Shown one piece after another: positions 3,514-23,600 of a stretch of DNA of 28,934 nucleotides. The DNA lies in contig DGUD01000062.1 in NCBI GenBank assembly GCA_002393865.1, forward strand, positions 1 through 28,934, read 5' to 3'. Position 1 is the stretch's first letter, and every line of letters begins with the position of its first letter. The translations under genes and the position numbers were made by a program. The notes beneath the pieces are model-generated. The model was not told the DNA's origin. It saw only the letters and a list, made by a program, of their open reading frames with translations, and searched no databases. This DNA comes from Treponema sp. UBA4319. Lineage in GTDB: Bacteria; Spirochaetota; Spirochaetia; Treponematales; Treponemataceae.

Positions 3514-3557
3514 CTCAGCCGGATTTGACCGGAATCAAGTACCACTCCCGCTGCACG

Positions 3558-3579
3558 CGGAACACAACATTGATTTCTG
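3558..3579 (+). repeat. Dyad-symmetric intergenic element, copy A
   Basis: CGGAACACAA, two bases, then TTGATTTCTG. The halves are near-inverted copies of each other (CGGAANNCAA / TTGNNTTCCG) with one deviation in the right half. Matching copies occur at 9298-9319 and, inverted, at 19442-19463. The element ends 19 bases before the -35 hexamer of the promoter at 3599-3627. Confidence 0.7.
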
Positions 3580-3580
3580 T

Positions 3581-3617
3581 GATTCCGGCGGCTCTTGATG
3601 GACAAGTGCCGGAAATC
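3581..3617. repeat. Inverted repeat overlapping a promoter
   Basis: GATTCCGGC (3581-3589) pairs with GCCGGAAATC (3608-3617), with one bulged A. An inner CTTG/CAAG pair (3594-3597 / 3603-3606) lies inside it. The -35 hexamer TGGACA (3599-3604) lies in the centre, so the structure could be an operator or an RNA hairpin at the very start of a transcript. Confidence 0.5.
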
Positions 3618-3627
3618 GGATTATAAT
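3599..3627 (+). promoter_or_regulatory. Strong sigma-70-like promoter with a distant downstream gene
   Basis: TGGACA (3599-3604), a 17-base spacer, then a perfect TATAAT (3622-3627). Transcription should start near 3634. The next convincing start codon is GTG 3954. The promoter lies inside an inverted repeat and just downstream of dyad copy A. Confidence 0.6.
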
Positions 3628-9219: not shown

Positions 9220-9297
9220 TTTTCCGCAGGGGGAATAACAGGATTTTACGCGCGGATAACACGATATTAGCCCGGCGCAGCCGGATTTGACTGAAAG

Positions 9298-9319
9298 CGG
9301 AGCACAAAATTGATTTCCG
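9298..9319 (+). repeat. Dyad-symmetric intergenic element, copy B
   Basis: CGGAGCACAA, two bases, then TTGATTTCCG. It lies in the 207-bp region between the divergent lipoprotein and histidine-kinase genes. As in copy A, CAGCCGGATTTGAC lies upstream (here 9278-9291), but with a shorter spacing. The -35 of the kinase promoter begins 35 bases further on. Confidence 0.7.
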
Positions 9320-9354
9320 TGCAGTGCCCTTGTGCCCCCTTCCTTTAAAAATCC

Positions 9355-9383
9355 TTGTTTTTCGTCATTTATGCTGCTATAAT
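9355..9383 (+). promoter_or_regulatory. Extended -10 promoter predicted to give a leaderless mRNA (hybrid kinase)
   Basis: TTGTTT (9355-9360), a 17-base spacer ending in TGC, then a perfect TATAAT (9378-9383). ATG 9392 lies eight bases after the -10, so the leader should be 0-2 bases. No Shine-Dalgarno is present, and an in-frame stop at 9383-9385 excludes an earlier start. Confidence 0.65.
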
Positions 9384-19402: not shown

Positions 19403-19431
19403 ATTCTAGCGGCAGATGCGCTGCGTGTCAA
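19403..19431 (-). promoter_or_regulatory. hisHF promoter, predicted leaderless
   Basis: On the minus strand, a perfect TTGACA (19431-19426), a 17-base spacer, TAGAAT (19408-19403), TCGCTT, then ATG 19396. The start of transcription should fall on the start codon. Dyad copy C ends 10 bases upstream of the -35. Confidence 0.65.
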
Positions 19432-19441
19432 CATGGAGGCA

Positions 19442-19463
19442 CGGAAATCAACTTTGTGTTCCG
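19442..19463 (-). repeat. Dyad-symmetric intergenic element, copy C (inverted)
   Basis: Read on the minus strand: CGGAACACAA, two bases, then TTGATTTCCG. It lies just upstream of the hisH promoter, in the space shared with the divergent DUF2087 gene. The flank CGTTTTGCGC (19482-19473, minus strand) also precedes copy D at 23194-23203. Confidence 0.7.
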
Positions 19464-23207: not shown

Positions 23208-23229
23208 CGGAGCACAAAACTGGTTCGCG
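23208..23229 (+). repeat. Dyad-symmetric intergenic element, degenerate copy D
   Basis: The left half CGGAGCACAA is intact. After two bases the right half has decayed (CTGGTTCGCG). The upstream flank CGTTTTGCGC (23194-23203) is shared with copy C. It lies 40 bases upstream of recQ. Confidence 0.5.
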
Positions 23230-23295: not shown

Positions 23296-23540
23296 TATAA
23301 GAACATGAACTGCGAAAGCAGTGAAGCTCGGCGAAGTAACATGGTAGGCGGCAAATTCGATTGTATTGGATCGTTCAGAAGTGAATCATACCTCGCTGCT
23401 CTGCGGCGAGGTTCGTTGATTTCCGTGGCATCTCAGGGCTTCAGCATTTTTCTGTACAAGTGAAGTATTCAAAAGGAGGCAGCGGGACGTAGGAAAAAAA
23501 TAAGGAGGGTCCCTTTAGGGAGGATTCCTTGTTTTTTTCC
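23296..23540 (+). ncRNA. Candidate small transcript (ncRNA or 52-codon small ORF)
   Basis: A TATAAG box (23296-23301) without a clear -35 is followed by about 240 bases ending in a strong terminator with seven U (23532-23538). Within it are a perfect ACTGC-GAAA-GCAGT tetraloop hairpin (23309-23322) and a 9-bp stem CCTCGCTGC/GCGGCGAGG (23391-23411). A 52-codon ATG frame spans 23305-23463 (MNCESSEARRSN...IFLYK) without a ribosome-binding site or recognisable family. Whether this is an RNA gene, a small protein or only repeat debris cannot be decided by eye. Confidence 0.25.
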
Positions 23541-23600
23541 GTTACTGGGACCCGCTGCTCATTTTGAGCGCTTGAAGTACCGTTTCATGCTGAAGCCCTG
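23434..23600. repeat. 167-bp imperfect palindrome (MITE-like or giant hairpin)
   Basis: The ends are a perfect 14-bp inverted pair, CAGGGCTTCAGCAT (23434-23447) and ATGCTGAAGCCCTG (23587-23600). Inside, GTAC matches on both sides, and CAAAAGGAGGCAGCGGG (23470-23486) matches CCCGCTGCTCATTTTG (23551-23566). GGAAAAAAATAAGGA (23492-23506) matches TCCTTGTTTTTTTCC (23526-23540), and TCCC/GGGA close a TTTA loop. CGTGGC occurs both at 23424-23429 and immediately after the right end (23601-23606), a possible but offset target duplication. No coding capacity. Confidence 0.75.
23502..23538 (+). terminator. Bidirectional terminator-like core of the palindrome
   Basis: AAGGA (23502-23506) pairs with TCCTT (23526-23530), with inner TCCC/GGGA around TTTA, followed by G and seven T. 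On the minus strand the same stem is followed by A then seven T, so it could stop transcription from either side. It also insulates the downstream O-acyltransferase operon. Confidence 0.6.

Follow-up and report, generated by a model that had tools for sequence, protein, structure and literature searches.

Palindromic MITEs with ISAs1-type ends recur at set distances upstream of predicted Treponema promoters

Introduction

Insertion sequences of the ISAs1 family generate target duplications of 8–10 bp and have termini that are usually, but not strictly, CAGGG. Repeats of the REP/RAYT and IS200/605 kinds have hairpin ends and come without target duplication. Bacterial transposons usually show a weak sequence preference or use a fixed site, and the yeast elements Ty1 and Ty3 integrate near Pol III genes, where they are aimed at the transcription complex. 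MITEs are normally intergenic (PMC10969869), and insertion sequences are reported to occupy promoter regions often, no more than 100 bp from a gene (PMC9208149).

A 22-bp dyad upstream of promoters had been noted in a 28,934-nt stretch of DNA from Treponema sp. UBA4319 (the whole stretch analysed, hereafter the window), and had been read either as the operator of a dimeric transcription factor or as a mobile repeat (the original prediction). We find that the dyad forms the right-hand tip of a palindromic MITE, which we call F1, and is not a free-standing operator; insertion is, we conclude, aimed at promoters, probably where the upstream edge of bound RNA polymerase lies.

Results

Dyad copies in the window

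Searching both strands of the window for CGGARNNCAA-N2-TTGNNTYCCG with at most 3 mismatches returned 8 matches against 1.08 expected, a number reached by 0 of 100 shuffles, so the dyad is real. The three good copies (A at 3558 and B at 9298 on the + strand, and C at 19442, best read on the − strand) and the decayed copy D at 23208 lie where they had been placed, and the flanks shared among window copies, CAGCCGGATTTGAC and CGTTTTGCGC, were confirmed. Of the degenerate copy proposed at 23416, the outer half plus TG stands, but the rest of the dyad is absent (Table 1).

As had been claimed, each good copy precedes a predicted −35: copy A by 19 bp, the main spacing described below; copy B by 35 bp, outside both spacing groups; and copy C by 10 bp, in the nearer group. 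Target duplications of the window copies are unreadable because none is full length. At hisH, the promoter TTGACA was kept in 9 of the 11 relatives listed and the dyad in 0 of 11; the nearest relative by hisH-region DNA (G208, 84%) has a different upstream gene. One of the 11, G187, carries a terminal repeat on its own 14 bp before its hisH −35 (L247); this appears to be an independent insertion at the promoter where copy C lies in the window.

Table 1 Element remnants and predicted promoters in the window
Feature	Position	Strand	Remark
Right-arm remnant CAGCCGGATTTGAC (3516–3529) and one 22-bp array unit (3529–3550)	3516..3550	+	Arm matches TCAGACGGATTTGCC in relatives
MITE right end: dyad copy A (3558–3579) and terminal TG (3580–3581)	3558..3581	+	
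Predicted promoter of GGDEF/EAL gene: −35 TGGACA (3599–3604), 17 bp, −10 TATAAT (3622–3627)	3599..3627	+	
MITE right end: arm remnant CAGCCGGATTTGACTGAAAG (9278–9297), dyad copy B (9298–9319) and TG (9320–9321)	9278..9321	+	
Predicted promoter of hybrid sensor kinase gene: TTGTTT (9355–9360), 17 bp, TATAAT (9378–9383)	9355..9383	+	
MITE right end: dyad copy C (19463–19442) and TG (19441–19440)	19440..19463	−	
Predicted hisH promoter: TTGACA (19431–19426), 17 bp, TAGAAT (19408–19403)	19403..19431	−	
Decayed dyad copy D	23208..23229	+	Leader of RecQ-like helicase gene
Half copy, terminal repeat TTGATTTCCGTG alone	23416..23427	+	

Six base pairs past the F1 half copy begins a 167-bp element of another family, F5 (23434–23600), with inverted ends CAGGGCTTCAGCAT / ATGCTGAAGCCCTG that look ISAs1-like, and with an imperfect 10-bp repeat (CGTGGCATCT / CGTGGCGCCC) on either side of it. 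It contains a GGGACGTAGGAAAAAA...GGGACCCGCTG repeat (23484–23558), and a similar stretch was seen before F1 ends in relatives (L063 and L073) and at another promoter (L281). An Rfam search of the window and 8 element loci found nothing at gathering score.

F1 is a mobile palindrome

F1 is about 150–330 bp long, and full copies end CACGGAAATCA...TGATTTCCGTG and have 9-bp target duplications. Of 60 distinct palindromic cores in relatives, at least 52 measured 145–172 bp. The left tip is an inverted copy of the right; in many cases a further stretch of about 100 bp comes after it and closes with the same terminal repeat. Dyad symmetry is a feature of the MITE, being that of the tip of a long palindrome, and the inner half-dyad belongs to the MITE alone. 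In many right arms of the UBA4319 genome, tandem 22-bp units (CCGGAATCARATRCCAYTCCCG) stand between arm and dyad (149 places; control, 0). These arrays, with a unit of two helical turns (for example, L014, L115 and L012), may be variable-number tandem repeats that lie ahead of promoters.

In 43 non-redundant cores, the 28 consensus pairs were 95% Watson–Crick (1142/1203 cells), with two-sided changes in 13 pairs; G–U filled 14 and A–C 10 of the 1203 cells, and neither strand's G–U was preferred. Pairing with two-sided changes and no G–U preference implies that the palindrome is kept or homogenised as DNA. We considered an RNA function for the palindrome and rejected it, as G–U and A–C cells were about equal and so gave no sign of one.

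The mobile-repeat option of the original prediction was right, as terminal inverted repeats, 9-bp duplications, empty sites and an ISAs1-family partner attest. In register, the insertion rule reads 9 bp, CACG...CGTG, 9 bp, and is obeyed in the UBA4319 genome by L111 exactly and by L028 with one mismatch. A duplication score of at least 6 was reached by 10 of the 17 copies whose extended left end was recognised, compared with 3.7% of mismatched pairings; with one trio and two pairs of orthologs each taken as a single copy, the count was 8 of 13. The 9-bp duplications do not fit a repeat of the REP/RAYT or IS200/605 kinds.

We searched 14 promoter segments in six genomes, which gave 56 stretches for 13 segments; 54 were used, two being too short. 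Orthologous promoters in close relatives were empty or held F1, inverted F1 or an unrelated repeat. One promoter had no element in G193 and G152 but was occupied in G058 and G119, where the junctions showed a target duplication, and G167 had a rearranged copy; another (L079) held F1 in G167, an inverted short F1 in G152 and an unrelated family, F2, in G193. At a further promoter three genomes (L163, L195 and L210) had the right dyad in common but differed in the remainder of the element, and in two of these just the two tips were left, back to back.

An ISAs1-family insertion sequence shares the F1 ends

A search of six more complete genomes with the end CAYGGAAATCARTTT revealed inverted pairs about 1.24 kb apart, and with them an autonomous partner, an insertion sequence of 1,238 bp that has terminal inverted repeats and one frame encoding a 389-aa DDE transposase. 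The transposase matched the ISAs1 family model NF033564 (E 3e-81, 273 bits against a cut-off of 70) and PF01609 (63 bits against 23), with PF13808 at 29.6 bits, under its cut-off of 32.3. F1 and this insertion sequence share the CACGGAAATCA ends, and were mostly seen in different genomes of the genus, the partner being found in more complete genomes only. The UBA4319 genome has, along with F1, a 5′ fragment of the insertion sequence on contig 225 (65% identity over 106 aa, reaching the contig end), whose left end points towards a promoter 18 bp away. Transposase matches, some of them distant, occurred in 27 of 200 genus genomes. A PF01609 search of six genomes gave 8 matches in 3 genomes, with these ends at 0 of the 8 loci.

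Among 14 elements of all sizes flanked by these terminal inverted repeats, the 9-bp duplication was exact in 8, had one mismatch in 2 and two or more in 4. Nine further stretches included two with exact duplications (L433 and L434), two with 2 and 3 mismatches (L436 and L438) and three that had no duplication (L435, L437 and L440); the other two (L439 and L441) repeat elements already among the 14. Three elements with the same ends (L365, L373 and L382) carry a gene for an Rpn-type PD-(D/E)XK nuclease (PF12784 and TIGR01784), and their 9-bp duplications are exact in two and have a single mismatch in the third; this nuclease gene has apparently been moved by ISAs1-type ends.

A divergent Treponema ISAs1 element (30% identity), with ends CAGGGCAAACGC and CAGGG termini, was present in nine copies in G237. 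Plasmid pTRESU01 of Treponema succinifaciens DSM 2489 encodes a transposase 100% identical to that of this element, and G237 is therefore probably that species. A search for this element in E. coli found no place covering 80% of it. Of 15 plasmid ISAs1 members examined, 9 had an exact 10-bp duplication; all 9 had CAGGG at the left end, and one (L444) had CACGG at the right end.

Distribution in the genome and the genus

The UBA4319 genome (2.76 Mb, 84% complete) holds 67 dyad places at up to 3 mismatches, compared with 0 for a reversed control. Copies lay outside long open frames well above the level of random positions, both there (24/30 copies against 39/150 random positions in the same loci) and in relatives (56/63 against 149/315). 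The outcome named in the original prediction as its refutation, a lack of enrichment between genes, was thus not what we saw. This test covered the 93 of 123 non-redundant copies with enough flank and is crude, as it flags copy C as inside a frame although that copy is located in the hisH leader.

Exact copies of the dyad were found in five Treponema MAGs (UBA3662, UBA6988, RGIG6799, RGIG10193 and RUI133; 18 stretches), of which RGIG6799 and RGIG10193 come, by record titles, from sheep and yak rumen; the MAGs are incomplete. Across 200 genus genomes, 8 had a match: UBA4319 itself, the five MAGs, G155 and, with one weak match, G172. The tip was absent from 193 of the 200, barring one weak match in one of them. 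A single 2-mismatch match in a genome of another family (G068) was found among 97 genomes searched.

Element ends tend towards two distances from the predicted −35

The placement of copies ahead of promoters was correctly described from the window, and is stronger than a single window could show. Right ends numbered 157 among the matches listed, 123 of them non-redundant, and 73 of these had a downstream sigma70-like promoter scoring at least 8, where promoters are predictions from an approximate sigma70 matrix. The gap from dyad to −35 was 18–22 bp in 52 of the 73, with a mode of 20. Shuffled downstream DNA gave a mean of 20.8 promoters, 1.6 of them in the 18–22 window (maximum 5), and the same interval held 0 of 9 promoters in DNA 100 bp further on and 0 of 7 in the reverse complement of upstream DNA. 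The spacing was found in 26 of 29 ends in the UBA4319 genome and 26 of 44 in relatives. No promoter scored 8 or more behind 50 of the 123 ends, and 21 of the 73 scored ends were off the main spacing, among them window copies B (35 bp) and C (10 bp), two of the three good ones.

Aligning the 123 ends on the tip alone, with no promoter scan, showed TG at +1/+2 (about 75% each), almost no sequence preference from +3 to +20 (0.11 bits or less) and then TTG at +21 to +23 (59, 46 and 40%). These data bear on whether the element itself carries or creates the promoter, either as a mobile promoter or by lending its end to a hybrid −35. MITEs can bring promoters, as the available part of PMC10969869 describes, but here both hexamers, −35 and −10, fall beyond the element, in non-homologous DNA past the nearly information-free +3 to +20 stretch, and hisH and several other promoters are conserved at sites without the element. 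We regard a promoter supplied by the element as wholly improbable.

An exact search across the 200 genus genomes, in which the gap was free (3–33) and TTGACA was required, gave 46 matches in 22 genomes and 0 for the reversed control. Counted after CGTG or its variants, the gap was 16–18 in 30 matches and 7–10 in 11, with 12, 14, 23, 28 and 33 once each. The peaks were at 18 and 8 bp, and the 41 matches left after removal of like spacers had the same shape. That the second group, at about 8 bp, is one helical turn closer suggests that the face of the helix matters. In the main group, the target of 9 bp would cover positions from about −53 to −45, which is the upstream edge of the RNA polymerase footprint.

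Untargeted insertion, followed by purifying selection that removes damaging insertions and spares those just upstream of genes, would fit the intergenic bias, and also the general intergenic position of MITEs and the proximity of insertion sequences to genes in the available parts of PMC10969869 and PMC9208149. Such purging predicts a broad upstream spread, but what was seen was peaks at 18 and 8 bp with 2 of 46 matches at 11–15; these are peaks rather than mere proximity, and are therefore unexplained by the loss of harmful insertions. Insertions confined to one genome and absent at 2–5 orthologous sites (L069, L162, L095 and L209) also stand at 19–21 bp. Purging is thus an unlikely account of the spacing, though the least improbable of the alternatives to promoter-directed insertion.

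Ends without the inner half-site keep a similar spacing

In a promoter-blind sample of ends of the insertion sequence and of other elements with terminal inverted repeats, 27 of 54 ends had a scored promoter and 17 were at 16–19 bp, compared with a mean of 0.5 (maximum 2) in shuffles; no inner half-site was present in the flanks inspected. Half of the near-full-length insertion-sequence copies (L364, L395, L396 and L398, 4/8) had an end at 16–19 bp with a score of at least 8, and the others (L370, L377, L421 and L433) did not. Five of ten extended F1 left ends scored at least 10, three at 18 bp and the others at 14 and 48. For inner left tips, beyond which the element usually continues outward, 13 of the 25 listed (from 64 strict copies) scored at least 10, and 4 were near the main spacing.

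F2 and the divergent ISAs1 element behaved similarly. F2, whose ends (RATTTGCACTTRCCTTCTRC) are unrelated to those of F1, occurs in six Treponema genomes (L316–L345; for example, L320 and L323), with paired tips mostly 230–260 bp apart, and its pattern was found at 157 places in 8 genomes against 7 reversed-control matches. Among 51 non-redundant F2 tips, 24 scored at least 10 and 20 of these were at 15–18 bp (shuffles: 2.6 scored, maximum 5). No target duplication was resolved in 20 F2 pairs, and an F2 transposase was not found. Five of the nine copies of the divergent ISAs1 element had an end at exactly 19 bp (one of them with its other end at 9), one had an end at 17 and three had none of these, measured from the terminal CTG by subtracting three bases. 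F5 (CAGGGCTTCAGCATGA), tried as a non-phased control, had 35 tips, 9 scoring at least 8 and 3 at 18 bp, which is too small a number for that purpose, and its end itself looks ISAs1-like. At 15 plasmid ISAs1 loci, 14 of them outside Treponema, 0 ends were at 16–19 bp with a score of at least 8; 5 of 30 best guesses fell at 17–19, all low-scoring.

These ends weigh on the operator reading, in which a dimeric activator would bind a dyad centred near −66 and act in a class-I-like manner, a repeat having spread the site. A near-perfect dyad, intergenic and upstream of promoters at two spacings about one helical turn apart, is what such a regulon would give, as is the right dyad kept in three genomes with differing DNA to its left (L163/L195/L210). 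However, ends of the insertion sequence, the extended F1 left end, F2 and the divergent ISAs1 element hold a similar spacing without the MITE-specific inner half; orthologous promoters, checked for retention, often lack the dyad; and so does nearly all of the genus (the 193 genomes above). Of 10 downstream proteins scanned, 9 had a Pfam match, and the genes behind phased copies in the UBA4319 genome include those for enolase, PEP carboxykinase, a Mur ligase, a DEAD/DEAH helicase, peptidase U32, an acyl-ACP thioesterase, a PTPS-family protein, an ABC transporter and a TetR regulator. With no function common to them, they do not form a regulon, and the operator half of the original prediction, very improbable on this evidence, gives way to the MITE.

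Discussion

We think it likely that F1 is a MITE with ISAs1-type ends that is moved in trans and inserted in a promoter-directed manner through the RNA polymerase–promoter complex. We infer both the mobilisation of F1 and the recognition of promoters by this transposase. An ISAs1-family transposase would move F1 in trans, and its complex would pick promoters by docking on the RNA polymerase–promoter complex or by inserting at its upstream edge, on one face of the helix. It might contact the polymerase directly or prefer polymerase-bent DNA. Insertion there would leave the −35 and −10 intact and park the element in permissive DNA. The wider proposition, that ISAs1-family transposases recognise RNA polymerase at sigma70 promoters and insert just upstream on one helix face, seems to us evenly poised.

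If correct, bacteria would have an equivalent of the integration of Ty elements at transcription complexes, and it would have seeded promoters throughout Treponema with MITEs. Promoter-phased insertion without a target sequence would make the host transcription complex the target, and would explain how an element multiplies without breaking genes. In uncultured spirochaetes it would also serve as a natural marker of where promoters lie, and it would offer a means of placing DNA beside active promoters; Treponema succinifaciens appears to be a culturable test bed.

Promoter-phased insertion of an ISAs1 element or a MITE was not reported in the parts of the open-access literature available to us. 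The partner is like ISAs1-family insertion sequences in family model, single frame, length of about 1.2 kb, terminal inverted repeats and 9–10 bp duplications, but its ends are CACGG where those of the other members seen are mostly CAGGG, and its promoter-spaced insertion is absent from the portions of the ISAs1 literature consulted. ERIC, Correia elements and BrickBuilt, as far as the available part of PMC10969869 describes them, are like F1 short, palindromic, non-autonomous and mostly intergenic with terminal inverted repeats, whereas F1 adds a fixed spacing to a native promoter that lies outside the element. IS5 at the E. coli glpFK promoter likewise inserts at one place and in one orientation upstream of a promoter (PMC2753651, available part), but at a single locus with a CTAA target, compared with dozens of unrelated promoters and no shared target here. 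For insertion sequences in promoter regions, the accessible part of PMC9208149 gives distances to genes; ours is a fixed spacing to the −35. Like Ty1 and Ty3, the elements described here seem to be aimed at the transcription complex, although the mover is a bacterial DDE transposon and its tethering is proposed by analogy.
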